64,000 nt of DNA. Source: Anaerolineae bacterium. Its GTDB lineage: Bacteria > Chloroflexota > Anaerolineae > Aggregatilineales > Phototrophicaceae. The notes below the pieces were generated by a model. That model made no database searches. It had not been told where the DNA came from and worked only from the letters and a program-made list of their open reading frames with translations. The stretch covers positions 1-64,000 of the forward strand of contig JABWBO010000007.1 in the NCBI GenBank assembly GCA_013360465.1, in the 5' to 3' direction. Positions 3,884 through 16,997 of this stretch are shown piece after piece; within the stretch, counting starts at the first letter, position 1, and every line of letters begins with the position of its first letter. The position numbers and the translations under genes are program-made.

Positions 3884-4180
3884 TTATTTCTCTTGTCTGC
3901 ATCGCTGCTTGCATTGTTCGTACAGGCGGATTCTGGTTCGCAGACGCAGTTGCACCTTTCGCCGTTGTCGTGTTCCATCTGCTGTGATCGCAGTCACATA
4001 TCCTTTTCCCTCCTCGCGGACAACCTGAATCTTGCCGATGTACGGGATATCGACCCATTTTCCGCTGGCAATCTCCTCCGCCAATGCTTCCAAATATCGT
4101 TCGACCGATTCGCGGACAACGGCTTTCGTTAAACTGCGCCGCTGCCGAGCGACGTGCGCGACTCGCTGTGTGTGGTTCAC
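3884..4180 (-). CDS. HU/IHF-family DNA-binding protein
   Basis: This 98-residue protein has an HU-like N-terminal helical half (HVARQRRSLTKAVVRESVERYLEAL), then the turn and strand GKWVDIPYIGKIQVV, matching the G-x-V-x-I-x-G-x-G-x-F pattern of HU dimers with variations. The C-terminal arm is short and basic (RQRRKVQLRLRTRIRLYEQCKQRC). HU proteins bend DNA and assist replication initiation and recombination. The GTG start at 4180 has GAGGAA about 10 nt upstream. Just upstream lies the GTCGG repeat array, so the protein may bind or be regulated there. It is probably the architectural protein of the island's replicon. Confidence 0.75.
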   Translation of the reverse strand: MNHTQRVAHVARQRRSLTKAVVRESVERYLEALAEEIASGKWVDIPYIGKIQVVREEGKGYVTAITADGTRQRRKVQLRLRTRIRLYEQCKQRCRQEK

Positions 4181-4208
4181 TTCCTGTTCCTCTCGAATGT
4201 TAAGAAGG

Positions 4209-4298
4209 TGTCGGTATCACCGACAAACCGACACCGCCGACAAATTGTCGGTAGAGTCGGTTGTCGGTTCTGTCGGTAGAGTCGGTAAATTAACCGAC
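4209..4298. repeat. Iteron-like array of GTCGG/CCGAC motifs
   Basis: Ten copies of the pentamer GTCGG occur in 89 bp: at 4210, 4247, 4256, 4263, 4272 and 4281 on the plus strand, and at 4220, 4228, 4237 and 4294 on the minus strand. Plus-strand spacings are mostly 7 or 9 bp. The 16-mer TGTCGGTAGAGTCGGT is repeated exactly at 4246-4261 and 4271-4286. A palindrome (7-bp arms, 3-nt loop) lies at 4209-4225. The array is between the HU-like gene and the end of the DUF3987 gene, and overlaps the latter's last codons. Iterons, a centromere or an operator cluster are the main options. Confidence 0.75.
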
Positions 4299-5846
4299 AA
4301 ACTCCGCTGCGATGAACCATTCCGCCCGTTCCATGCGACGTTCCTCGATCAATCCGGCACGCATCAGGTCGGTGGCAAGCTGGCGCGCCTGCTTCGCTGA
4401 GAAATTCAGGTTGCGATACAGATCGCGCAAAGCTACCCCGTCTGCACCTGCCTGACGGATGGTTGTCAGCAGACGATCTTGCTGGCGACGCTCGACCACC
4501 GCCTCCCCACTCTTGTCGAGCTGCTCCAGCAGGCGGTGCGCGCTCGTGCGCCAGCCGTCGCAGATCGCCTGCGCGGCGTTCCAATGTTCAACTGTGACCG
4601 TCGGCACAGTGTCGCTCGTTTTGAGCCAATCCAGCGCAGCGAATACTGACGCCAGCTTGAACGCCTGTACGTGCATCCGTCCGTAAACGCCCTTCAGCCG
4701 TTCGTCGAGTTCGACCTCGCGGCGCGGATCGCACAAGCGGCGCAGTTCATCGCCGTAGCGCTGACATTCCGCCCAACATTCGACATTCAAGCGCAGCGCA
4801 CCCGGCGCGCTCAGTCCCATCTCGGTCATCTCCGGCGCGGGCAGCCGCTCGTGCAGGCGGCGCAGATGGTCGATCAGGTCGGTGGGTGCAGGTTGATACA
4901 GTGGCGAGGCGGGACGCTCGGCATAGTCCGGCTCTGGCATGAGCAGCGCGAAGCGGACGAGTAAGCCGTTGTCCCAATCGCCCGCGCTGATGGCGCTGCC
5001 CAAACTGGCAGGCGTGGTCACACCGAGAATCGAAAGCGCCGCGTTCTCGACCACATTCAGCCCGGTCTGCGTGTCCTTGTCGAAGTAATCCGGGCAGTCG
5101 TACAGCTCCATGAGCAGGTCTTTCATCCCCACCATATAATCGCGTTTGTTGATCGCGCCGAACAACCCCGACACCTCATCCTTAAGCAGTCCCCGCTGCG
5201 CCGCGAACGGCTGTCCCCGCGTGAGCCGCTCCTGCTGCGCTTTCGGCAGCTTGTCGAAGTTGGTCGGCATCCGCCCCGCCAGCGCCTCCTGAAACCGCTC
5301 CGGTGATCCGGGTGTCGGCATCAGCATGTGTGGAATGTCCGCCCGTGCCACGCTCTCCGCCAGCTTATAGGCGGTCGATTTACGGTAAAACGTTGTCCCG
5401 GCAACCAGCATCAGGTACAGATTCGGATAAATCCGCACGCCCCACGGCGCTTCCCCGTACAACCTGCGTCCGACGGCGGTCGCCAGCAGCCAAAGCCCGG
5501 CAGCTTGATGGAAGATCAACGGGGTCTGGTTGCCCGTCGCGCCCGCCCATGACATATAGCGTTCGAGCCAATCGGGGAGCTTCAACGGTGGCGCGGGTGG
5601 TTCCTGTCGCGGCGGATCAGCAGGTAGTTCGCGGCGGCGTGTGATTTTTGGCGGTTCAGGTTTTTCGACCAATCCACCCAACTGCACCGGATCGATGTTC
5701 AACCGCGTGCAAACTTCCTTCGCCAGCATCGTTCCGCACAAATAGCAGTGCCCGTAGCCGCTGGCGATATTGAAGCGTATGTTAAGTGGAATCAAACGGT
5801 GGAGTGGGATACATTGAAACCCCGTTTTGGTAGTGGAGGGTAGCAT
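4290..5846 (-). CDS. Primase/DUF3987-helicase, C-terminal half, separated from its N-terminal half by the nested element
   Basis: From 5777 down, the protein begins mid-domain with ASGYGHCYLCG, the second half of a CHC2-like zinc ribbon. A DUF3987-type ATPase region follows, with a P-loop-like VAGTTFYRKSTAYKL and a later DEVSGLFG. The C-terminus is winged-helix-like (LLTTIRQAGADGVALRDLYRNLNFSAKQARQLA). In related plasmid proteins this region is fused behind a prim-pol domain, and here that domain lies at 9396-10142. Codons between 5778 and 5846 belong to the inserted element and give an ATG at 5846 with GAGGAG upstream. Internal ATG 5729 is an alternative. The half is intact and could be made separately. 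Confidence 0.75.
   Translation of the reverse strand: MLPSTTKTGFQCIPLHRLIPLNIRFNIASGYGHCYLCGTMLAKEVCTRLNIDPVQLGGLVEKPEPPKITRRRELPADPPRQEPPAPPLKLPDWLERYMSWAGATGNQTPLIFHQAAGLWLLATAVGRRLYGEAPWGVRIYPNLYLMLVAGTTFYRKSTAYKLAESVARADIPHMLMPTPGSPERFQEALAGRMPTNFDKLPKAQQERLTRGQPFAAQRGLLKDEVSGLFGAINKRDYMVGMKDLLMELYDCPDYFDKDTQTGLNVVENAALSILGVTTPASLGSAISAGDWDNGLLVRFALLMPEPDYAERPASPLYQPAPTDLIDHLRRLHERLPAPEMTEMGLSAPGALRLNVECWAECQRYGDELRRLCDPRREVELDERLKGVYGRMHVQAFKLASVFAALDWLKTSDTVPTVTVEHWNAAQAICDGWRTSAHRLLEQLDKSGEAVVERRQQDRLLTTIRQAGADGVALRDLYRNLNFSAKQARQLATDLMRAGLIEERRMERAEWFIAAEFVG
5778..5794 (+). repeat. Left terminal inverted sequence of the Tn554-like element
   Basis: TATGTTAAGTGGAATCA is immediately followed by an AT-poor leader to the first recombinase gene. 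Its GTGGAATCA core (5786-5794) recurs inverted at 9384-9392. The flanking base pattern fits a recombinase arm-binding or core site. Confidence 0.6.
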
Positions 5847-6852
5847 GATGACTACTCCTCAATGGGCAAGGTTTGGACGGATTCGCAACCATCCACAAGC
5901 CAGCGCATGGTTGGAATTCCAAGCGAATTTAGGTTTGGCGGACAACACGCTGGACGCTTATGGACGCGGTTTAGAAGCTTTTCTGGCGTTTTGTGAGGTG
6001 CGCTCGTTTCCAACAAACCTGGCAAAACGCGAACACATTGCCTTGTATGTCCGTCATCTGGCAGACTCCGGGCTCGCCAACGCCACGCTGCAACAACGCT
6101 TGACAGCAGTTCGACTCTTTTTTGACCATTTGGTTGAGGATGGGATACGAACTGAAAATCCCGTCGGGCGTGGTCGCTACCGTCCGGGAAATGCCTTTGG
6201 TGGGACCCGGGAGCGGGGACTCATCGCCCGTTACCATAAGCTGCCGTGGATTCCTTCGGAAGCGCAGTGGCAAGCGATTCTTGTCGCCGCCCGCCAAGAG
6301 TGTTTGCGAAACCGCACGATGTTTGCGTTCGCCTATGATGCAGGGTTGCGCCGTGAAGAACTTTGTTTACTGTCTACCCAAGATATTGACCCTCCTCATC
6401 GTCTGCTCCGTGTTCGAGCCGAAACCACCAAGAACCGTCAGGAGCGCCGTGTGCCGTACTCGACGTGCGCTGGAAAGTTATACCAAGCGTATGTTCATGA
6501 ACGAGCGAAGGTCAGTCACAGTCGTGGTGCCTTATTCCTGTCGGAGTCCGCACGAAACCGAGGTCAGCCGATCTCCATCTGGACGTGGACGAAGGTGGTG
6601 GAACGGATTGCCAAACGCGCCCAGATCCCCGAATTTACCACCCATACCCTGCGGCATCTCTGTTTGACGGATTTAGCGCGTGCGGATTGGGATTTGCATG
6701 AAATTGCTCAGTTCGCTGGACACCGCAGTTTGCAATCCACGCTGTGTTACATCCACCTGAGTGGCCGCGAGTTGGCTGAGAAACTGGCACGCAGTCTTGA
6801 GTCCATACGGGACATGCGCCTGACCGAAATGGAGGCATGGGTCAATGAGTAA
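5845..6852 (+). CDS. Tyrosine recombinase, TnpA-like (small subunit of the pair)
   Basis: This 335-residue phage-integrase-family recombinase has an N-terminal SAM-like core-binding domain (residues about 15-105) and a C-terminal catalytic domain. All active residues are present: R169 (GLRRE), K196 (TKNRQ), H267 and R270 (HTLRH), H293 (GHRS) and Y302 (CYIHL). The ATG at 5845 is preferred over an upstream TTG because GGAGGG at 5835-5840 is well placed; ATG 5848 is also possible. The stop overlaps the next start in ATGAGTAA, implying translational coupling. It probably acts with the large recombinase to move the element. Confidence 0.9.
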   Translation: MMTTPQWARFGRIRNHPQASAWLEFQANLGLADNTLDAYGRGLEAFLAFCEVRSFPTNLAKREHIALYVRHLADSGLANATLQQRLTAVRLFFDHLVEDGIRTENPVGRGRYRPGNAFGGTRERGLIARYHKLPWIPSEAQWQAILVAARQECLRNRTMFAFAYDAGLRREELCLLSTQDIDPPHRLLRVRAETTKNRQERRVPYSTCAGKLYQAYVHERAKVSHSRGALFLSESARNRGQPISIWTWTKVVERIAKRAQIPEFTTHTLRHLCLTDLARADWDLHEIAQFAGHRSLQSTLCYIHLSGRELAEKLARSLESIRDMRLTEMEAWVNE

Positions 6853-9085
6853 TCTGGAGGCTCCGAAGATACCGACCAGCGGCATCCCCTTCCGAGTCAT
6901 GAATCTTGACCCCTATGACCGAAACCCCATCCTCACTCAACCTGAGCGGGAAGCGTTGCAGGCAATGGTAAAGGTGTTCGATGCCAAACGCTTCTACTGG
7001 CCAGCGGGAAGTGAACAGACCCTCTACCGTCTGCTCTGCCCACTTGGGGATGTCCTGTCCTTTCTGCCCAGCTATCCGCTTTCCTGCATGAAAGCGGTGC
7101 GCCTGATGATTCGCACGATGCACACCAGCCAAGCAGCCTATTGGGGCTGGACTCCGCAACAATGGTTTCCCCTGTTCGAGGACCACCCGCGTACGCCCAC
7201 TCGGAAAGCGGTTCGTCCGGTCATCCGCGCTTTCGCCTACCTGCTGGGTGGCATTCGACATCTGCCCGAAACGGACAAGTGCAACCGTTCCTACTTTGCC
7301 GCCCTTATCTTTGGCAAAGAAGTCGTTGAAGCAGCCCTGGAACAGGTCATTAGCCACCTCATGTCGTGGGGCTACAGTCAGGTTGACGTTCCCAGCCAAG
7401 TCCGCGAAGTCCTGTCTGAATTTTTCCTCGTCAATGGCAGCACGGCGCTGGAGATGCTGCCCACGGATATTGTGAGTCGCGTTCAGAAAACATGTCCACC
7501 TGTCCATTACTACAACACGGTTCACGCCATTTCGCGGGCGCTGGTGAGTCTTGGCTGCCGTCAGGTCCCGCTTCTGATTCCAGAACCAGACAAAGTGCCG
7601 TCAAAACGCCCTGCTGCCACACAGGGCATTGACCCCGAATGGATAGCCTGGTGCAAACGCTGGGCGCATACATCGACCCAAACACCCGGAACCATTGAAC
7701 ATCATTACTACACCTTACTGAAAGTCGGGCGATGGTTAGCCGCCACACATCCCGAAGTGACTTCGCCAGCGCACTGGACCCGCTACCTCGCCGTTGAGTT
7801 TGTCGCTGCGGTGAACCACATGAAGGTTGGTGACTATGTATCTTCCCAGAAGCACATTCCAAACGTCGGCAAACCGCTATCTGCCTCCTTCAAGGTCAAT
7901 CTCCTGTTTACCGTGGGTGTGTTCATTCATAACTGCCAGGAATGGGAATGGATTCCCAGAACCTTCAGTCCTGAACACTGTCTGACCGCGACACGCACTC
8001 TGAAAGCACAGCTCAAGCCCGCGCCGCGAGTCATTGACGATGCGCTCTGGGCCAAACTCATCTGGGCAGGTCTCAACCTGACGGCTGAGGATGTTGTGGG
8101 CTTTGTCTACCCTTATGAATTTGTGCGGGCGGTCGCCGTGTTATGGCTGTTCTCTGGCTTGCGAAGCAATGAGATTCGCCGTTTGCGGGTCGGCTGTATG
8201 CGCTGGCAGAACACGCCGTCCAAGGCGGATGAGGCTTCCCTAGCTCAGGTTGTTTGTTTACTCGATGTACCCGCCAACAAGACCTGCGGTGCCTTTACCA
8301 AGCCTGTCGCTCATGTGGTGGGCAAGGCGATTACGGCATGGGAAGCCTTACGTCCATCTCAACCACCCCTGCTTGACCTCAAGACGGCTGAAATGGTTCA
8401 CTATCTGTTCGTCTACCGAGGCAAGACCATGGGGGAACACTTCATTAACAAAAGCCTGATTCCCATCCTCTGCCGAAAAGCGGGTCTTCCTCAAGAAGAC
8501 CAGCGCGGTAGATTGAGCAGTCACCGCGCACGGGCAACCATTGCCACGCAGCTGGCGAATGCCAAAGACCCGATGTCGCTTCTGGAATTACAACATTGGC
8601 TGGGGCACAACACCCCGCTCTCGACACAATACTACGTCATGGTCACGCCAACCCGTCTGAGCCGGGCGTATGCTGAAGCAGGCTATCTCGACCGTAATCT
8701 TCGCGCGATTGAAGTCCTCATTGACCAAGAAGCGATTCGCAGTGGGGCGGCTGCGGCGGGTGAACCTTGGAAATACTATGACCTAGGGCATGGGCATTGC
8801 ACCTACGACTTCTTCGACCAATGCCCACACCGGATGGCGTGCGCTCGGTGTGACTTCTATGTTCCCAAAGATTCTGCCAGGGCACAACTGCTTCAGGCCA
8901 GAACCAATCTGCTGCGCATGAAACAGGAGATTCCCCTGCTTGAGGACGAGTTAGCCGCTTTGGATAACGATCTGGCAGCCATTGACCGGTTGTGTCGTCG
9001 CTTAGCGGATGTACCCTCTCCCGCTGGTCCAACCCCACGGGAACTAGGTGCCAGCAACATTATCTCCCTGAACGATATTGGTTGA
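6845..9085 (+). CDS. Large tyrosine recombinase, TnpB-like
   Basis: This 746-residue protein has a long N-terminal region and a catalytic tyrosine-recombinase domain in the second half. Catalytic candidates are R440 (GLRSNE), a Lys in PANKTCG, H560 and R563 (SHRARAT), H588 (LGHNT) and Y596/Y597. After the catalytic core comes a Cys/His-rich segment (HCTYDF..CPHRMACARCDFY) that may bind zinc, then a coiled coil and a Pro-rich end (LADVPSPAGPTPRELG). The size and the overlap with the preceding gene match TnpB of Tn554-type elements, which act as a pair on fixed or sequence-related targets. Its 3' end overlaps the antisense primase tail at 9060. Confidence 0.88.
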   Translation: MSNLEAPKIPTSGIPFRVMNLDPYDRNPILTQPEREALQAMVKVFDAKRFYWPAGSEQTLYRLLCPLGDVLSFLPSYPLSCMKAVRLMIRTMHTSQAAYWGWTPQQWFPLFEDHPRTPTRKAVRPVIRAFAYLLGGIRHLPETDKCNRSYFAALIFGKEVVEAALEQVISHLMSWGYSQVDVPSQVREVLSEFFLVNGSTALEMLPTDIVSRVQKTCPPVHYYNTVHAISRALVSLGCRQVPLLIPEPDKVPSKRPAATQGIDPEWIAWCKRWAHTSTQTPGTIEHHYYTLLKVGRWLAATHPEVTSPAHWTRYLAVEFVAAVNHMKVGDYVSSQKHIPNVGKPLSASFKVNLLFTVGVFIHNCQEWEWIPRTFSPEHCLTATRTLKAQLKPAPRVIDDALWAKLIWAGLNLTAEDVVGFVYPYEFVRAVAVLWLFSGLRSNEIRRLRVGCMRWQNTPSKADEASLAQVVCLLDVPANKTCGAFTKPVAHVVGKAITAWEALRPSQPPLLDLKTAEMVHYLFVYRGKTMGEHFINKSLIPILCRKAGLPQEDQRGRLSSHRARATIATQLANAKDPMSLLELQHWLGHNTPLSTQYYVMVTPTRLSRAYAEAGYLDRNLRAIEVLIDQEAIRSGAAAAGEPWKYYDLGHGHCTYDFFDQCPHRMACARCDFYVPKDSARAQLLQARTNLLRMKQEIPLLEDELAALDNDLAAIDRLCRRLADVPSPAGPTPRELGASNIISLNDIG

Positions 9086-10142
9086 CTTGGCTCATGGTTC
9101 GGCACGGCGAATGGCTGTAAGCACTCTGGATGGTTCGTCGTGCCTCTCCCGCTCTCGCTTGTCTGGATTCATGCCCTTCACTGTCCGCCAGATAACACGG
9201 CACGAGCAAACTCTCCGACTCGGTCATGGTGTATCCCCCGTTGCGAAAATGACACGCTGCCTCAAACAAAGCCCTGTTCCGTCGTCCAACCGGCGCTCCA
9301 TAAGCCAGATAATCCCATGTTGACTTCGGTAAAGCACGGTGACCGAAGTTAGCGCACAAGGTTTGACCGCTTGACAACGATCCTGATTCCACATAACCGA
9401 AAGACGGATTCCGGTCGCCATGTTTGTGCCGCTCTGGGTACAGGCAGCGACCGTGAAGCCATTCGCCATGCGACTTGAAGCCCTGCCCCGGCAGCACGCG
9501 GGCGATTTCCTCAATCACCCGGCGGTTGAGCGGCGCATCCCCACTCGGCGCGCTGATCTTGGGCGGCTGCCATGTGCGCGTTTCTTGCCGGGGCTTAAAG
9601 GCTTCGATCCACTCGACCAAATCATCCAAGTTCGGCACGCGCAGAATGTCGAGCGGTTGCTCGACCCGGTACGGCTGTCCCGTGATCGGGTGAATGCTCG
9701 GTGGCGCGACCATCTGCCTCCCATCCCCACACACCTCCAAGTGACCGATGGGCGTGTTCATCGCCTTCACGCTCGGGGACAGCACATCGACATAGAAATA
9801 GACGTGCCGCCCCACGCCTCCCCCGCTGGCAACGGTGTAGGTTTGCGCCAGCGCTGGAAAGGTTGCGCCGAACGCTGCGTACCCCGCCGCTCCATCGAGA
9901 TCGAGGACAACGAGGTTTCCTGATACTGCACCGCACACGATGCCGACATTGCCAAATGTCCAAGAGCGGATCGTCGCTTCGTCCGCCCGCTGCTGCTGAT
10001 ACTGTGTCCAGCTTTTCAGCGCCGGACGCTTACCGTCCAGCGGAATGACGCTCAAGCCGAGCGCAGCATATGCCAGCGCTGCGGATAGAATTGTGTCTTG
10101 CTGCGCCGCCTGAACAATAGGCGGGAAATTCAAGGATGACAT
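9060..10142 (-). CDS. Prim-pol N-terminal half of the plasmid primase, with an element-encoded C-terminal tail
   Basis: This is a 360-residue product. Residues about 15-200 form an AEP/bifunctional primase-polymerase domain, with an acidic VVLDLDG motif and SGGGVGRHVYFY. The first half of a zinc ribbon follows (RCLYPERHKHGDRNPSFG). At 9395 the frame enters the inserted element and continues without a stop for about 112 codons. The tail contains TLCANFGH and helical charged sequence (EGHESRQARAGEARRTIQ) that looks protein-like, not random. The ATG at 10142 is chosen for GGAAGC just upstream. Primase would prime the island's replication. The tail may replace the lost half of the ribbon, which is inferred. 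Confidence 0.7.
   Translation of the reverse strand: MSSLNFPPIVQAAQQDTILSAALAYAALGLSVIPLDGKRPALKSWTQYQQQRADEATIRSWTFGNVGIVCGAVSGNLVVLDLDGAAGYAAFGATFPALAQTYTVASGGGVGRHVYFYVDVLSPSVKAMNTPIGHLEVCGDGRQMVAPPSIHPITGQPYRVEQPLDILRVPNLDDLVEWIEAFKPRQETRTWQPPKISAPSGDAPLNRRVIEEIARVLPGQGFKSHGEWLHGRCLYPERHKHGDRNPSFGYVESGSLSSGQTLCANFGHRALPKSTWDYLAYGAPVGRRNRALFEAACHFRNGGYTMTESESLLVPCYLADSEGHESRQARAGEARRTIQSAYSHSPCRTMSQVNQYRSGR
9384..9395 (-). repeat. Right terminal inverted sequence of the Tn554-like element
   Basis: On the minus strand this reads TATGTGGAATCA. It shares TATG and GTGGAATCA with the left end, where five bases separate them differently. The host primase codons for NPSFG abut it directly at 9396. 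Confidence 0.6.
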
Positions 10143-10198
10143 CGTGCTTCCTTTATAGAGGTACACACCGGATGTAAAACGCGCCGTTGGACAACGAT

Positions 10199-10250
10199 GT
10201 GAACCTGATGTATCCTCAAGTTGACGAGACAAGAGAAACATCAGGTTCAC
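10199..10250. repeat. 13-bp perfect inverted repeat upstream of the primase gene
   Basis: GTGAACCTGATGT (10199-10211) and its exact reverse complement (10238-10250) flank a 26-nt spacer between the RHH gene stop and the primase start. The lack of a T run argues against a simple terminator. An RHH-protein operator, replication origin or attenuator is more likely. Confidence 0.6.
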
Positions 10251-10266
10251 CCACGCCGCCAGCCCC

Positions 10267-10674
10267 TCACGCTGGCGGTTCGGTTTTCTTGCCGGCAGCG
10301 ACAGTCTCGATCCACTCGCTCACCGTATCGTGCAGATCGACCCCTTCGGTGATCGCATCTGCCAAAAGATCACCCGCTTCAACCTGTTCCTTGCGGAGGC
10401 GCTCGGACAGCAGGTGCAGTGTTTGCAGATTGAGCCACAGTGTCACCGACAGCAGCCGTTCAATGTGATCAACCCGTCGCCCAAAGGCTTTAGTGAAGTG
10501 CTTGCGGCTGCCGATCACGTCCTCCTGTTCGTCGAGAAAGGCGCGCAGTGCGGCGCGCACCACCTCTGCTTTAGCTTCGTCGCGCCCGCGCGCGACCTGT
10601 TCCAGACGGTCGTCCATTGCTTCGGTGACCTGCACCGTGAGGCGCTTTGGAAATTCTTTGTTTCTATCAGCCAT
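10267..10674 (-). CDS. Ribbon-helix-helix (CopG/MobC-like) DNA-binding protein
   Basis: This 135-residue protein has residues 8-50 forming an RHH fold: a strand KRLTVQVTEAM, helix DDRLEQVARGR, then the helix KAEVVRAALRAFLDEQ. A mainly helical C-terminal half with leucine-rich heptads (ERLLSVTLWLNLQTLHLLSERL) could dimerise or contact a partner. Such proteins serve as copy-number repressors or as relaxosome accessory factors. The position between the relaxase and primase genes, beside two groups of inverted repeats, supports a DNA-site-specific role. The ATG at 10674 is clear. The choice between repressor and relaxosome protein cannot be made from sequence. Confidence 0.75.
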   Translation of the reverse strand: MADRNKEFPKRLTVQVTEAMDDRLEQVARGRDEAKAEVVRAALRAFLDEQEDVIGSRKHFTKAFGRRVDHIERLLSVTLWLNLQTLHLLSERLRKEQVEAGDLLADAITEGVDLHDTVSEWIETVAAGKKTEPPA

Positions 10675-10769
10675 GTTCCCTCATTTGCACTGCACATCGA
10701 ACGAAAAATGCACTTGCGGTTCGTTTCTGGTGGCGCTGGACGCTGAGAAGCGTGCTGCGCCATGCCTTT

Positions 10770-10970
10770 CAGCGTCGGGGGGCTGCGACACCCTCGACGC
10801 TGGCGGCGCGCTCCCGAGCGCGGCGCATCAAGCCTCCCCGGCATGTGAGGGGCGAGTTGATTAAACTCGCTACCCCTACTTCGTAGAGGGTAGGGTGTCC
10901 CGCCCAGCGGGATCGACCATCTGTACAGCAGAATGGGCGGGACACCCACGAGCGGCGCGAAGCCGCTCGT
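10770..10970. other. Stem-loop cluster, candidate oriT or replication origin
   Basis: The 340-bp gap 10675-11014 has no gene but contains tightly packed inverted repeats. They are: 8-bp arms 10770-10777/10795-10802; a palindrome 10807-10822; 7-bp arms 10852-10858/10864-10870; an imperfect hairpin 10870-10893; 14-bp perfect arms 10893-10906/10934-10947; and 9-bp perfect arms 10948-10956/10962-10970 abutting the previous one. This density next to a relaxase gene is typical of oriT or single-strand origins. A structured RNA is an alternative. Confidence 0.6.
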
Positions 10971-11014
10971 ATGCTTTTGGGCAGTGCGACCCGGATGCAA
11001 TGCAAAGAACTGTT

Positions 11015-11698
11015 TCATAGATCGATCTCCAGACTGCGCCCGTCGCTGTTGTCGATGTCCAATGCAATATCCTGCTCCTGCCCCAGTTCTGGGTCACGCA
11101 GTAAACGCCACTCCCGCCCAATTGTCCGATCCAGCAGCGTCTCGAACTCGTGCCGCGCAATGTGATGCAGGTTGTCTTCCCGGTTCAATCCGCCGCGATC
11201 CGTACACACCTGCTGGCGATCCACCCGGTGCGACTCACGTTCACCGAGGCTGTTCTCGATGGTTCCGGCGACAAACACATGCGTGTGCAGCATTTGTATT
11301 CCATAGTCGTCGTCAGTATCCCGGTCGTGGAGTACGTATGAAAACTCAGGGGTATTCAGCCCGCGCGCCTCGTGCCACGCCTCAATCGTCCGCTCGGTGA
11401 CTTCGCGCACGAGGTCATGCTTCATTTCGTCCGGTACGAGTTCCATCAGATCAGGTGCGGGCGCGATGACGAGGTGATGCGCCAGCACATACGGTCCCGC
11501 CAGCTTGCCCGCGTTTTCGTAGACGGCTCGCCAGCCCTTGCCCAACCCGCAGTCCGTCCAGTGTTCGTCGATCTCGACCGGGCGGTGATCGGGACTCTCG
11601 CGGTTCGATACATACTTGAGCAGTTTCTTCAGCCCGCGATAGCCGCCTTTCGACGGCTTCTGATACTTCCAGTTCGGGATGATCGTTGGCTTTGCCAT
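11015..11698 (-). CDS. Small HUH relaxase/mobilisation protein
   Basis: This 227-residue protein has the metal-binding HUH motif LHTHVFVAGT preceded by VLHDRD and by HHLVIAPAPD, and an N-terminal YRGLKKLLKYVSNRESPDHRP segment that could supply the nicking tyrosine, as in MOBP/MOBV-like relaxases. The start at 11698 has GGAAGGGA upstream and lies 5 nt after the zinc-finger gene's stop. It is short, with no C-terminal helicase or primase domain, so it would rely on a host conjugative system. Candidate nick sites are in the stem-loop region directly downstream. Family assignment is from motif only. Confidence 0.7.
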   Translation of the reverse strand: MAKPTIIPNWKYQKPSKGGYRGLKKLLKYVSNRESPDHRPVEIDEHWTDCGLGKGWRAVYENAGKLAGPYVLAHHLVIAPAPDLMELVPDEMKHDLVREVTERTIEAWHEARGLNTPEFSYVLHDRDTDDDYGIQMLHTHVFVAGTIENSLGERESHRVDRQQVCTDRGGLNREDNLHHIARHEFETLLDRTIGREWRLLRDPELGQEQDIALDIDNSDGRSLEIDL

Positions 11699-11703
11699 GC
11701 GCG

Positions 11704-11859
11704 CTAAATCCCTTCCGATGACACAAAATGAGAGACAACCGCATTCCTGCGTTGCAGTTTGGCTGTCTGCCGGCAGCGGTTGCTGCAATACAAACGCGGT
11801 CGTCCGGCGTAGTAATCCGACCGGGGCAGCACGTCTCCACACACGGCGCAGTGCCTCAT
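11704..11859 (-). CDS. 51-residue CxxC...CxxxC zinc-finger protein
   Basis: This small gene sits between the membrane-protein and relaxase genes. Its ATG overlaps the stop of the upstream gene (ATGA at 11856-11859), and it ends 5 nt before the relaxase start, so all three are probably co-translated. The protein reads MRHCAVCGDVLPRSDYYAGR followed by PRLYCSNRCRQTAK and a basic tail. The CAVC and CSNRC pairs suggest one structural zinc site, similar to FCS/MYM-like or plasmid-encoded treble-clef fingers. It is likely a DNA- or relaxosome-binding accessory. The operon position and Cys pattern are the only support. Confidence 0.72.
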   Translation of the reverse strand: MRHCAVCGDVLPRSDYYAGRPRLYCSNRCRQTAKLQRRNAVVSHFVSSEGI

Positions 11860-12821
11860 TCGTTCGCCTCTGGATGGCTGCCATTCCCGTTCACGCTGAC
11901 GGCTAAAGGGCGCACCATCTCCACAACGCCCCCTTCGTCTCTGCCTTCAACCAGCACGGGCGTAGCGATTGTTTCCGGCGTTTCGTACCAGTCGTCTGCC
12001 TGCAATTCCCGGTAGACCAGCGCCCGCCAATCGGCGTGACTCAGCGTTTCCAGCACTTCGCGCTTGCGGCTGTTCACCTTGCGGAGTGCATCTCGCAGTG
12101 CATTGGCGTAGAACTGCATCCAGCGGTTGTGCGCTTCCGGGTTGATCGTCGCCCGCTGCCACTCATTGATCGCCGCCTGATAAGCGCGTTCATTCGCATG
12201 GCGCAGTTCGATGGCTTCGAGCATCTGCTCTTTGAGGACATAAGCAGTGGACAGCACCAACAGCGGCGGCGCGATCGCTTCCAACCAAGCGAACGGGCTT
12301 TCCAGATGACCGGGCAGGGCAACCTGTACGTTCCCGATGAGCGCGATCCCCGTGGCGATTCCCATACTCCCATAGAGCAAGCGGCGCGCCCCTTTCGATG
12401 TGCCGAGTGTCGCCAGCGCAAGCGAGAACACCACCTGTCCGACTTCCGCAGTTAGGACGGTAGCAATCCCGACCGCGACCATCGCCAGTTCATACGGCAC
12501 GGCTGCGCCGAAGGTTGATGAACCAATTACATAGAGACGAATTGCAGACGGTGTGAAGGCTGCCAGCAGCAGTGCGATGCACAGCCCGCTGATCAATTTC
12601 GTAACCATCGGTGGGTAGCGGTGCGCGGCATGGTGATTGAAGCGCTCTCGGTCGGGGCGCTCTCCGATATCGCGCATGACGGCATCTCCTGCCGCGCTGC
12701 GTGCAAGCTGGCGCTCTTCCTGTGTGAGGGGTTTAATTTGTGATAGTGGGAATGTTCCGTTCAATGCCTCGTCTCCAAGTTCCAAAACGACTTCGTTTAG
12801 GAACCTGGTCAGGCACTTCAA
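11856..12821 (-). CDS. Four-helix membrane protein of the mobilisation operon
   Basis: This 321-residue protein has a charged N-terminal region (about 75 residues), four hydrophobic helices (about residues 72-98, 105-140, 146-170 and 176-200), then a cytoplasmic Glu/Arg-rich helical tail. It is the first gene of the operon that continues with the zinc-finger and relaxase genes (ATGA overlap). Membrane proteins in this position on mobile elements sometimes couple the relaxosome to a secretion channel, but no ATPase motif or named family is seen, so this is a suggestion only. The TTG at 12821 is the longest start; a later start near residue 50 is possible. Confidence 0.6.
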   Translation of the reverse strand: MKCLTRFLNEVVLELGDEALNGTFPLSQIKPLTQEERQLARSAAGDAVMRDIGERPDRERFNHHAAHRYPPMVTKLISGLCIALLLAAFTPSAIRLYVIGSSTFGAAVPYELAMVAVGIATVLTAEVGQVVFSLALATLGTSKGARRLLYGSMGIATGIALIGNVQVALPGHLESPFAWLEAIAPPLLVLSTAYVLKEQMLEAIELRHANERAYQAAINEWQRATINPEAHNRWMQFYANALRDALRKVNSRKREVLETLSHADWRALVYRELQADDWYETPETIATPVLVEGRDEGGVVEMVRPLAVSVNGNGSHPEANE

Positions 12822-13899: not shown

Positions 13900-14736
13900 A
13901 TGACTGACTTGCTGAATGTCCCGGTTGAACGCCGAGTCGTTGAACAACTGGATTGGGCGGTCACACATCTGACCCCCCTGCTAGCGCAGTTTCAGCCGAT
14001 CAGTCTCGCCGATATACAAAGCGCGGCGCTGCTGGACCGCGTGGACACGAAATACATCATGGGGGTCAGTCAGTTGTGCGAGGCATTGGAGACGATGCCG
14101 CGTCACTATTGGGTTCTCGAAATTCAGGGCGTCCGGCTGAATCGCTATCAGACGGTCTACTTCGATACCGATGATTTCGTCCTCTATCAGCAGCATCACA
14201 ACGGGTTTGGGACGCGCTACAAGGTGCGCGCCCGCAAGTATGTCGATTCAAACCTCGCGTTCTTCGAGATCAAGCATCGCACGAACCGACAGCGCACCAT
14301 TAAATCCCGCATCACCATCCCCGACATCAGCCTTCAGATCGAAGACCGGGTCGCGGAATTCGTCAAGGCGAACACCCCTTACCAAGGGCAGGCTTTGGAG
14401 CCAAAGCTGTGGAACGACTACATGCGTGTAACCCTGGTGAGCAAGAACGACTTGGAGCGGCTGACGCTCGACCTGAATATCGCCTTCGGATGGAACGGCT
14501 TGTACAGCGTACTGCCTGGTGTCGCCATCGCCGAGGTCAAACAGGCGCATCTTTCGCGGGGTTCCGAGTTCGTCCAGCAGATGACCCGTCTGGGAGTGCG
14601 CCCCGCCTCGTTCAGCAAGTACACCGCCGGTGTATACACCCTGTATGACCAGGTGAAACACAACGCTTTCAAGCCTCAGATTCGCCGTATTGCCAGGCTC
14701 ATGCAAAGCGAGTTCAGCCATGAATGCTCTCACTGA
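13900..14736 (+). CDS. VTC-domain (polyphosphate polymerase-like) protein
   Basis: This 278-residue protein has a VTC/CYTH-tunnel layout: DRVDTKYIM at the start, QTVYFDTDDF, RYKVRARKY, FFEIKHRTNRQRTIKSRI, then later basic and acidic strands (LDLNIAFGW, VAIAEVKQAH). In yeast Vtc4 such residues bind nucleotide and growing polyphosphate. Bacterial VTC-domain proteins are mostly uncharacterised. GGAG at 13886 supports the ATG at 13900. It is followed with a 17-bp overlap by a DUF4956 membrane protein and then by a CotH kinase gene, a recurring trio in bacteria. Polymerase activity is inferred from fold only. Confidence 0.85.
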   Translation: MTDLLNVPVERRVVEQLDWAVTHLTPLLAQFQPISLADIQSAALLDRVDTKYIMGVSQLCEALETMPRHYWVLEIQGVRLNRYQTVYFDTDDFVLYQQHHNGFGTRYKVRARKYVDSNLAFFEIKHRTNRQRTIKSRITIPDISLQIEDRVAEFVKANTPYQGQALEPKLWNDYMRVTLVSKNDLERLTLDLNIAFGWNGLYSVLPGVAIAEVKQAHLSRGSEFVQQMTRLGVRPASFSKYTAGVYTLYDQVKHNAFKPQIRRIARLMQSEFSHECSH

Positions 14737-15352
14737 AGCCCTGGTAGGTTTCTTGCTGAACCTGATCATCGTCGTGGTGATCGTCAGGTTCATCTACTAC
14801 CCGCAGCAGCGCGATAAGCACTTCGTCTTCACATTTGTCGGGTTCAATACCGTCGTCTTCTTCGTGATGGGGCTGTTGAACGACTCTGCCCTGAGTATCG
14901 GTGCCGGTTTCGGGCTGTTCGCCATCTTCTCGATCTTCCGGTACCGTACCGACGCCATCCCTATCCGCGAGATGACCTACCTCTTCGTGCTGACGGCGCT
15001 TCCGGTCATGAATTCCATTCTGCTGCCCGCCGCAGCCTACGGGGAATTTGCGCTGGTCAACATCGCTGTCGTCACCGTCTTGTTCGTCCTGGAAAAAGGT
15101 TGGGGCTTCAGCTTCGATGTACGCAAAACCATCGTCTATGAACGGATTGAACTGACCCGCCCGGAAAACTGGTCGCTGCTGCTTGCCGATCTGCAAGAGC
15201 GAACCGGGCTGCCGATCAAACGGATCGAGATCGGCGAGCTGAATTTTCTGCGCGACACTGCGCAGATCACCATCTATTTCGACGCCCGCGCCGTTAACCC
15301 AACATCAGTTGGCTTCTCCGTAACATCCATCGCCGCCGCCGCCGATGACTGA
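14720..15352 (+). CDS. DUF4956 membrane protein
   Basis: This 210-residue protein has about four membrane helices in the first 130 residues (starting LVGFLLNLIIVVVIVRFIYY), including the typical FGLFAIFSIFRYRTDAIPIREMTYLF stretch of DUF4956. A cytoplasmic C-terminal domain of about 80 residues is alpha/beta-like. It starts at ATG 14720 inside the end of the VTC gene. DUF4956 is regularly found beside VTC-domain genes, so the two may form one membrane-linked machine, with the VTC protein as the soluble catalytic or sensing part. No function is established. Confidence 0.85.
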   Translation: MNALTEALVGFLLNLIIVVVIVRFIYYPQQRDKHFVFTFVGFNTVVFFVMGLLNDSALSIGAGFGLFAIFSIFRYRTDAIPIREMTYLFVLTALPVMNSILLPAAAYGEFALVNIAVVTVLFVLEKGWGFSFDVRKTIVYERIELTRPENWSLLLADLQERTGLPIKRIEIGELNFLRDTAQITIYFDARAVNPTSVGFSVTSIAAAADD

Positions 15353-15404
15353 ACCACCGACTGCCACACACTGCACCCGGATTACCCACAAGGATTGACG
15401 CCCC

Positions 15405-16997
15405 ATGAAACAGCACCTACTCGCCCTCGCTGCCACCATCCTTCTCGTCATGGTGGCAACGCAAACCCCTTTATCATTGGCGCAAGGAGACACCGCTGCC
15501 CGACCGGATGGGTGGCGAGAAGACTCGCACGGCAGCGAGGTCGATCCAGATTATGCGGTGGTGTTTCCAACGGATGAAGTGAACACCATCACTATCACCA
15601 TCACGCCCGATAACTGGCAGGCGATCCTGGATGATATGACCGAACTATACGGCGGATTTGGGTCGCGCCCCGGCGCAGATCGGATCGGCGGCGGCTTTCC
15701 GGGAGATCGTCTCCAACCGCCGGGTGGGAGCGGACTTGCTCTGCCGCCCGAAGGGTTTCAGCCACCTGAAGGCGACAATCCAGGACAAGTACCACCCGGC
15801 GGTGTACTGCCCGGCGGCTTTCGCCCTCTCGGTGGCGCAGGCGAGAATGTCCTCGGAATCGATCAGAATCCGATCTGGGTGACGGCGACCATCGAGTTCA
15901 ACGGACAGACCTGGACGAATATCGGTTTTCGACTCAAGGGTAATTCGAGCCTGATGAGTTCCTGGTCTGGCGGGCTCTACAAACTGCCCTTCAAGCTAGA
16001 TTTCGACCAGTTCGAAGACGACCACCCGGAAATCGAAAATCAGCGATTCTTCGGTTTCCAGCAGCTGAGCTTTTCAAGCAACTGGAGCGACGACTCGCTG
16101 CTGCGCGAACGGGTCACCGCCGACATCTTCCGCGAAGCCGGCGTTCCCGCTTCCCACACTGCCTTCTATGCGGTCACCATCGATCACGGGTCTGGACCCA
16201 TCTACTTCGGGCTGTACACCGCTGTTGAAGTCGTCGACGACACCGTCATCGAGACGCAGTTTTCCGATGACAGCGGCAACCTCTACAAGCCGGAAGGCAG
16301 CGGCGCGACCTTCGCCCTGGGCGCGTTCAGCGAGGAGTCTTTCGACAAGGAGACCAACCAAGATGAGGAAGATTACAGCGATATCCTAGCCCTCTTCGCA
16401 GCGCTGCATGACGAAACCCGCACCACTGATCCAGAAGCCTGGCGTGCGCAGCTCGAAGCGGTATTCGATGTGGACGTTTTTTTGCGCTGGCTGGCGGTGA
16501 ACACCCTCGTCCAGAACTGGGACACTTACGGCAGAATGGCGCACAACTACTATCTCTATAACGACCCCGCCGACGGACTGCTGACCTGGATTCCCTGGGA
16601 TAACAATATGGCGCTGAGCGAGGGTTTTGGCGGTGGGTTCGGCAGAGGCAGGCAGAACGATTCGCCAGCCAGCAGCGCGCTTGATCTCTCTGCTGTTGAC
16701 GCCGGTTGGTCCCTGATCCGCTTCCTGATGGATGATCCGGTCTATCAGGAGCGCTACGTCGAGGATGTAGAAGAGATCATTCAGGGTGCGTTCGAACCGG
16801 CGAGGATGGAAGCGACCTATCGCGCTCTGCACGACCTGGTTGCTCCATACGTCGTGGGCGAAGATGGCGAAATCGCCGAACACACGCTGCTCAGCTCTCC
16901 GCAGGCATTCGAAAGCTCAGTCGCCGAACTCATCGCGCACGTCAACGCTCGGTATGATCTGGCGCTGGACTATCTCGCCTCGCAGGCTTCGCAGTAG
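15405..16997 (+). CDS. Secreted CotH-family kinase-like protein
   Basis: This 530-residue protein has a signal peptide (first 27 residues, ending LSLAQ). A TITITPDNWQAILDDM strand-helix opens the CotH region. A Gly/Pro-rich insert of about 70 residues (15650-15850) precedes the core, which has GNSSLMSSW, KLPFKLDFDQF, FSNWSDDSLLRERV, FGLYTAVEVVDD, LYKPEGSG and the metal-binding-like WIPWDNNMALSEG. CotH proteins are atypical extracellular protein kinases of spore coats and of many non-spore-formers. It follows the VTC and DUF4956 genes by 52 bp and is probably co-expressed. A bidirectional terminator ends the unit. Confidence 0.88.
   Translation: MKQHLLALAATILLVMVATQTPLSLAQGDTAARPDGWREDSHGSEVDPDYAVVFPTDEVNTITITITPDNWQAILDDMTELYGGFGSRPGADRIGGGFPGDRLQPPGGSGLALPPEGFQPPEGDNPGQVPPGGVLPGGFRPLGGAGENVLGIDQNPIWVTATIEFNGQTWTNIGFRLKGNSSLMSSWSGGLYKLPFKLDFDQFEDDHPEIENQRFFGFQQLSFSSNWSDDSLLRERVTADIFREAGVPASHTAFYAVTIDHGSGPIYFGLYTAVEVVDDTVIETQFSDDSGNLYKPEGSGATFALGAFSEESFDKETNQDEEDYSDILALFAALHDETRTTDPEAWRAQLEAVFDVDVFLRWLAVNTLVQNWDTYGRMAHNYYLYNDPADGLLTWIPWDNNMALSEGFGGGFGRGRQNDSPASSALDLSAVDAGWSLIRFLMDDPVYQERYVEDVEEIIQGAFEPARMEATYRALHDLVAPYVVGEDGEIAEHTLLSSPQAFESSVAELIAHVNARYDLALDYLASQASQ

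Follow-up and report, generated by a model that had tools for sequence, protein, structure and literature searches.

A Tn554-related recombinase-pair element inserted in the primase gene of a plasmid-like block in an Anaerolineae genome

Tn554-type elements are known mainly as resistance transposons with fixed targets. Here we describe a related element, without a recognisable TnpC gene, that divides a primase gene of an Anaerolineae bacterium (Chloroflexota; assembly GCA_013360465.1, contig JABWBO010000007.1). The DNA analysed, called the window below, comprises the first 64,000 nucleotides of this contig, which is 272 kb long (C84) and belongs to a 5.9-Mb genome; all positions are those of the window. 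The primase gene is read on the minus strand, and the insert within it carries two overlapping genes for tyrosine recombinases on the plus strand. The open reading frames (ORFs) that define the locus, with lengths in amino acids (aa), are as follows.

4290..5775, minus strand: C-terminal half of the primase, with the remaining part of the zinc motif and DUF3987 (Pfam DUF3987, E 1.1e-16); joined to the N-terminal half in a copy on contig C49 of the same genome
9397..10142, minus strand: N-terminal half of the primase, with Prim-Pol and the start of the zinc motif (Pfam Prim-Pol, E 9.6e-23)
5776..9396, plus strand: whole insert, 3621 bp, delimited by the empty C49 copy and by terminal repeats
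5845..6852, plus strand: tnpA-like tyrosine recombinase, 335 aa (Pfam Phage_integrase, E 3.4e-32; conserved R170, K196, H267, R270, H293, Y302)
6845..9085, plus strand: tnpB-like large tyrosine recombinase, 746 aa, with a C-terminal Cys cluster (Pfam Phage_integrase, E 1.4e-9; conserved R440, H560, R563, H588, Y597, C652/C660/C666/C669)

The two halves are one gene and the insertion is real, as is confirmed because the same genome holds an uninterrupted copy and the alignment with it breaks at the ends of the element. This copy, a 751-aa primase homologue on C49 with the same neighbouring genes, matches the window at ~80% nucleotide identity on either flank of the insert, and the blastn alignment stops at window position 5774 and restarts at 9397. 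Excising 5776-9396 yields the motif PSFGFN, matching the homologues. Of 14 homologous primase loci, ten extend across the site, each without an interruption; the motif reads PSFGFN in nine of them and ASFGFN in L046, and both halves are complete, or run up to the end of the locus, in six. The other four loci, which do not span the site, are those that lack the zinc motif. In a second set of 12 loci, one of which (L182) is the C49 gene already counted as L031 in the first set, no insertion was found at the primase site. Both halves also match a single phage primase family, phrog_3022 (788 positions), the N-terminal half at 52-189 and the C-terminal half at 380-767, and both are open, with no stops.

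A preliminary description of this DNA had already read the halves as one gene, and the C49 homologue, the phage family and the uninterrupted spanning homologues, which hold both halves within one gene, bear it out. The insert bounds that it gave, 5778-9395, keep the frame but leave an extra Arg codon (PSFGRFN rather than PSFGFN), and the true bounds are 5776-9396. The zinc motif at the site (C-x4-H...PSF...CxxC), the best conserved of the primase, resembles the CHC2 type; Pfam called no CHC2-type zinc motif in the intact C49 protein. Three of the 12 loci in the second set are decayed, L190 (G711:C14) and L192 (G684:C4) by frameshift and L191 (G690:C7) by an in-frame stop; the first of these had been a candidate for another interrupted primase, and carries its frameshift without any insertion.

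The ends of the element are built from the following parts.

5776..5781, plus strand: left hexamer CGTATG, not in the empty site by comparison with C49
5782..5793, plus strand: left terminal inverted repeat TTAAGTGGAATC, a motif common to relatives above chance
9369..9377, plus strand: subterminal GCTTGACAA, present also just within the right end of the Streptomyces element L061
9385..9396, plus strand: right terminal inverted repeat GATTCCACATAA, a motif common to relatives above chance
9397..9402, plus strand: right hexamer CCGAAA, own to the target gene (CCGAAG in C49)

There is no target duplication at the insertion. Relatives from several phyla have the terminal motif around their recombinase pairs, among them those of Streptomyces, Rhodococcus, Spirosoma, Skermanella and members of the window's phylum. 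With one mismatch allowed, 16 of 36 related loci carry it at both ends and 12 at a single end; the left and the right motif each occur in 22 loci, where Markov shuffles expect 1.25 and 1.85, respectively, the motif having been derived from some of the loci in which it was counted. Three related pairs (L139/L146, L138/L142 and L155/L188) share their left hexamer and differ in the right one, and in a fourth (L137/L143) the left hexamers agree and the right end of L143 is unsure. We interpret the left hexamer as moving together with the element, in most pairs, while slowly changing, and the right hexamer as the target's own. The non-target hexamer lies on the left here, so that the arrangement appears mirrored relative to Tn554. 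It also appears mirrored with respect to the accounts of Tn552-II (PMC12486829) and of the SE elements (PMC10214605), which, in the parts of these sources available to us, place the brought-in sequence on the right. A promoter formed over the right end (TTGACA and CATAAT) was considered and dropped, its spacing being inconsistent among relatives as judged by eye.

The recombinase genes overlap by 8 bp and have the sizes first reported for them. Both keep an R-H-R-H-Y set, at alignment columns where 90% or more of the 20 sequences compared for each protein agree, and we take these residues to have the catalytic roles usual for such enzymes. In single comparisons with L148, a Listeria ivanovii trio that is taken as Tn554-type by the sizes and order of its genes and stands in for Tn554 itself, TnpA is 26% identical over 332 columns (E 2e-21) and TnpB 23% identical over 150 columns near the C-terminus (E 1e-5), in agreement with the Tn554-like pair of the preliminary description. 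The trio and the window pair further share CPHxxACxxC at the TnpB C-terminus, the lack of a target duplication and insertion within a gene. Unlike the trio (tnpA tnpB tnpC), the window element has no ORF between tnpB and the right end that fits TnpC, a DUF6262-like protein, in any of the six frames, all read by eye, and it holds no other gene oriented like the recombinases. The cyanobacterial relatives L064, L065 and L067 have one more ORF downstream of tnpB, which looks TnpC-like by eye. The insertion and the kind of element are secure.

Relatives of TnpB occur in 597 plasmid records, 451 of which cover at least 80% of the query. Matches were found in 18 of 400 genomes of a phylum sample (E<=1e-20), in 4 of 98 genomes of the host family (E<=1e-10) and in 6 of 298 genomes of a class sample (E<=1e-3), the window's own genome being counted each time; the other five in the class sample are short, weak and C-terminal. 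No relatives were found in viral contigs with the patterns used, and PADLOC made no defence-system assignment for the four proteins.

Two-recombinase couples of this kind have been described. In the part of the survey by Van Houdt et al. 2012 available to us (PMC3414803), the Tn554-related couples Famint36/41 consist of adjacent recombinases of ~350 and 611-828 aa, without TnpC, in Rhodococcus and Streptomyces; that part describes neither ends nor a target rule nor captured cargo. The window pair is like them by description, and the best-scoring plasmid relatives of its TnpB come from these genera among others, whereas the window's host is a Chloroflexota genome. As far as the consulted part of their account goes (PMC10214605), the strand-biased circularizing SE elements likewise have one ordinary and one large recombinase, inverted repeats, a 6-bp core and a target preference; they differ in having four core genes (intA, tfp, intB, srap), whereas two recombinase genes fill the 3.6-kb window element. 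RIT elements differ in having three adjacent recombinase genes.

Related elements lie in other genes, often those of other mobile elements, and yet have the same ends. Of the two findings that the preliminary description named as contrary to targeted insertion, relatives at unrelated sites and different ends, only the first is seen. The preliminary description had proposed that the element targets a conserved primase motif; a conserved coding motif as target stands, and one target common to the whole family does not. When the pieces of the targets were scanned apart with Pfam, rve began at profile position 26 in the right pieces of both Rhodococcus cases, and MmeI and IS5-type transposase targets had one domain on each side of the element. 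The zinc domain of an IS605-type TnpB target is cut at position 52 of 60 (N-terminal piece scanned), and the pieces of IstB, Rad52 and a Y-family polymerase, scanned on one side, stop at the element. Other labels were given by eye and are our assumption. We take L061, L139 and L146 to lie in ISL3 genes, with Pfam ISL3 reaching just E 0.044-0.046 for L144 and L139; the L144 gene is annotated as ISL3 in its record. We likewise take L097, L098 and L103 to lie in DinD genes (the first two without Pfam support, L097 at a different site of its gene than L098/L103), L066 (E 0.011) and L068 (no Pfam match) in PAPS reductase genes at different sites, and L140 in umuC.

A tree of TnpB was made from 31 loci by a quick method without a mixture model; it has 30 rows (L107, with 147 aa of TnpB, was dropped), 21 of them labelled at gene level, and most of its deep forks are weak. 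Target genes change ten times on it, the minimum for 11 labels, and 200 shuffles gave at least 12 changes (mean 15.7); therefore the target is passed on together with the recombinase. That each recombinase clade has its own conserved coding-motif target has good support across the family and is likely also for the window copy, whose nearest row (L189) lies in a gene read by eye as hypothetical.

A sister element in the host family offers the clearest view of such a target. L155 (1-3854; G700:C50) and L188 (G688:C33), from two genera, are 99.3% identical over 3696 aligned bp; right flanks and intact homologues place both at one and the same codon of PRTRC_C-like alleles that clearly differ from each other. 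The two copies show that elements of this family are mobile and choose their target. Their cargo includes a complete 67-aa ORF, 46-68% identical to full-length relatives in the host family, and AGGAGG with an ATG at the right end opens a frame that, in either allele, leads into the cut target. The 67-aa ORF had no match to the PRTRC_C model, and the two cut genes match it below the NCBIfam cut-off. By translated search among 17 elements, clear target-like cargo was found in this one lineage; hits in L143 were small and scattered and were judged by eye to be of low complexity, and those in L137 were a repeated 60-bp right end. In G667:C19 similarity to PRTRC_C sets in at residue 23, which had suggested another target-like insertion; on reading, the gene proved to be decayed, and no end of an element falls there.

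We consider it very probable that a Tn554-related recombinase-pair element of 3.6 kb, which pairs a short TnpA with a long TnpB and lacks TnpC, entered the primase gene of a plasmid-like block. In the mechanism that we propose, both recombinases would act jointly on a circular form of the element, and the end-to-end junction of the circle would be joined to the target at a short core lying within a conserved codon motif. The left hexamer would be kept with the element and the target's own hexamer left on the right, and the primase gene would be split rather than simply destroyed. Reversibility, which had been raised as a possibility, is not supported: no empty allele of this very gene and, reads being unavailable, no excised circle was seen, and in the related SE elements, according to the part of the account available (PMC10214605), recombination of attL with attR does not restore the empty site.

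Several observations weigh against this reading. Eight of the 36 related loci have neither end by the motif used, and the left hexamer is not constant in all close pairs, one base being changed in L061/L146 and in L062/L140 and three bases in L098/L103. The core is possibly 7 bp long, because the paralogue differs at the boundary base. The likeness of TnpB to the Tn554-type trio is confined to the C-terminal catalytic and Cys region. The genome holds a single copy of TnpB, and movement of this very element was not seen. For the sister element the site is read from the right flank alone because the left flanks are missing from both contigs, which end near the element and keep just 3 and 5 bases. 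Pfam found nothing convincing in the target pieces of L066, L068, L097 and L098. Finally, no relative with a readable target lies in a primase, so that targeting of primases rests on this single insertion and on the primase-derived cargo.

This cargo lies in the right arm of the element, where ~300 bp separate the tnpB stop from the right repeat; in the Streptomyces element L061 the repeat nearly abuts the stop.

9105..9362, minus strand: fragment of a PriCT domain from another primase family, continuing the frame of the primase N-terminal half (Pfam PriCT_1, E 8.1e-4, 19.4 bits, cut-off 21.1)
9060..10142, minus strand: chimeric ORF Prim-Pol::PriCT, 360 aa, crossing the right junction (AlphaFold2 model)

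The frame of the N-terminal half does not end at 9396, as had been supposed, but runs from the ATG at 10142 past the junction to 9063, through a PriCT_1-like domain that lies wholly within the element. The piece is 41-55% identical to other primases, mostly with open frames near 1000 aa. It has matches in 30 of 98 host-family genomes (E<=1e-5) and in 2 of 400 genomes of the phylum sample (E<=1e-6), the window's own genome included in both counts. A search for a closer source gave no phage or plasmid match at E<=0.01 and, in viral contigs, matches of 30-33% only. It is assigned to a different primase family because Pfam found no PriCT in the C49 copy and the piece has no similarity to its own flanks. 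PriCT-like stretches were also seen by eye in L039/L043 and, following Prim-Pol proteins, on contigs C72 and C250 of the same genome. PMC (PubMed Central) titles and abstract openings described no in-frame captured domain in a Tn554-type element.

At the left end the element provides a new start for the other half of the gene.

4290..5846, minus strand: ORF of the primase C-terminal half, 518 aa, starting inside the element (ATG 5846-5844, GAGGAG 5860-5855)

Such motifs, resembling ribosome-binding sites, were recognised by eye. Free-standing counterparts of both products exist. DUF3987 frames of 539-564 aa stand alone on five contigs of the same genome (C155, C161, C29, C63, C36), and short Prim-Pol/zinc proteins of 327-395 aa occur three times in it and once in its family. 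Shuffling of primase modules looks common in this genome because separate DUF3987 and Prim-Pol genes, the latter partly with PriCT-like stretches, exist beside the fused type. Given the chimeric frame and the new start, the broken gene may therefore yield two proteins, Prim-Pol::PriCT and the C-terminal half.

Whether the cargo serves any purpose admits more than one answer. We lean slightly towards the simplest, namely that the insertion kills the primase and that the PriCT piece is a decaying chance passenger, its open frame and the new start being coincidental. The piece lacks six residues that are invariant in 25 homologous rows (read by eye from the alignment; 23 distinct loci, two entered twice) and scores lowest of all in a leave-one-out profile test (83; the others 103-158), both of which appear to be signs of relaxed constraint. 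Its Pfam score falls short of the cut-off, its G+C content is flat over the codon positions (0.56/0.57/0.55), and its dissimilarity to its own flanks points the same way. A frame match is expected by chance in 1 of 3 cases and an ATG with a ribosome-binding-site-like motif in 3.7-4.7%, and the C49 paralogue could supply the primase function. Yet the piece contains no stop or frameshift, both gene halves are open, and PriCT stands in its natural place behind a primase domain. An AlphaFold2 model of the chimera has Prim-Pol at high confidence, a disordered linker and a PriCT stretch (residues 281-350) with block means of 67-91, from a shallow alignment of 13 rows and with a predicted TM score (pTM) of 0.54. 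Moreover, the sister element carries a gene resembling its target and supplies that target with a start codon.

These last features belong with a second explanation, which we think unlikely as matters stand. The pieces and signals carried as cargo would keep the broken gene working, so that the host mobile element survives; here the products would be Prim-Pol::PriCT and a free DUF3987 protein, and the sister element would bring an intact PRTRC_C-like gene together with a new start for the interrupted one. The target-like ORF of L155/L188, with its AGGAGG-ATG in frame in both alleles, would be the best parallel. The separate DUF3987 and Prim-Pol/zinc proteins favour this explanation too, as does Tn552-II, a Tn554-like element that carries a target-gene-like gene, tgl, with a proposed rescue role in the part of the account available (PMC12486829). 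The window element resembles Tn552-II in moving Tn554-fashion with target-gene-like DNA aboard, and differs in its cargo, part of a different primase that continues the frame of the broken gene, where Tn552-II has a whole similar gene. Set against this are the single lineage with clear target-like cargo, the failure of its 67-aa ORF to match the PRTRC_C model together with the low scores of the cut genes, and the origin of the window cargo from a different primase family with signs of relaxed constraint.

In its widest and rather doubtful form, the argument would make the family lineage-specific parasites of the core genes of other mobile elements, carrying exon-like pieces and start signals that let a broken gene yield functional products; here a primase of the type Prim-Pol-zinc-DUF3987 would become a Prim-Pol::PriCT primase and a separate DUF3987 protein, the PriCT domain having come from the primase of a rival element. 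The captured PriCT piece and the sister's spare target copy raise the question of rescue parts that spare the carrier element, and if rescue were true, insertion would be a route to the shuffling of primase domains. That the halves are two natural separate genes with the recombinases merely between them is refuted by the empty C49 site: stand-alone Prim-Pol and DUF3987 genes do exist in this genome, but the closest relative, with the same neighbours, is a single gene, the break falls exactly at the terminal repeats and the ten spanning homologues are uninterrupted, which leaves this reading almost no credence.

The insertion, taken together with the related elements, suggests a broader rule, in which each recombinase clade inherits one conserved coding motif as its target, and suggests that the elements are nested parasites, their targets often being genes of other mobile elements. 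In the window the gene that was hit belongs to a larger block.

3900..12740, strand not assigned: host block with an HU-like gene, the primase, an RHH protein, an unassigned gene and a membrane protein (80% to C49 by blastn; Pfam Bac_DNA_binding and RHH_1)

The recurrence of this block on C49 agrees with the nesting in a larger mobile element that had been claimed from the start, the block being, as we infer, plasmid-like and mobile; its unassigned gene may encode a relaxase or replication protein. Genes at 13900-16997 putatively encode a VTC polyphosphate polymerase, a CotH-like protein and, between them in the list, a membrane protein, and their presence suggests that the block is integrated in the chromosome and not free. 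Directly past the 3' end of the primase C-terminal half, at 4246-4286, stand three copies of a 16-mer resembling TGTCGGT(AGAG)TCGGT. In the related element L137, the repeated 60-bp copy of the right end lies ~1.3 kb past the element's right end and is possibly a remnant of an earlier insertion or the product of a one-ended event.

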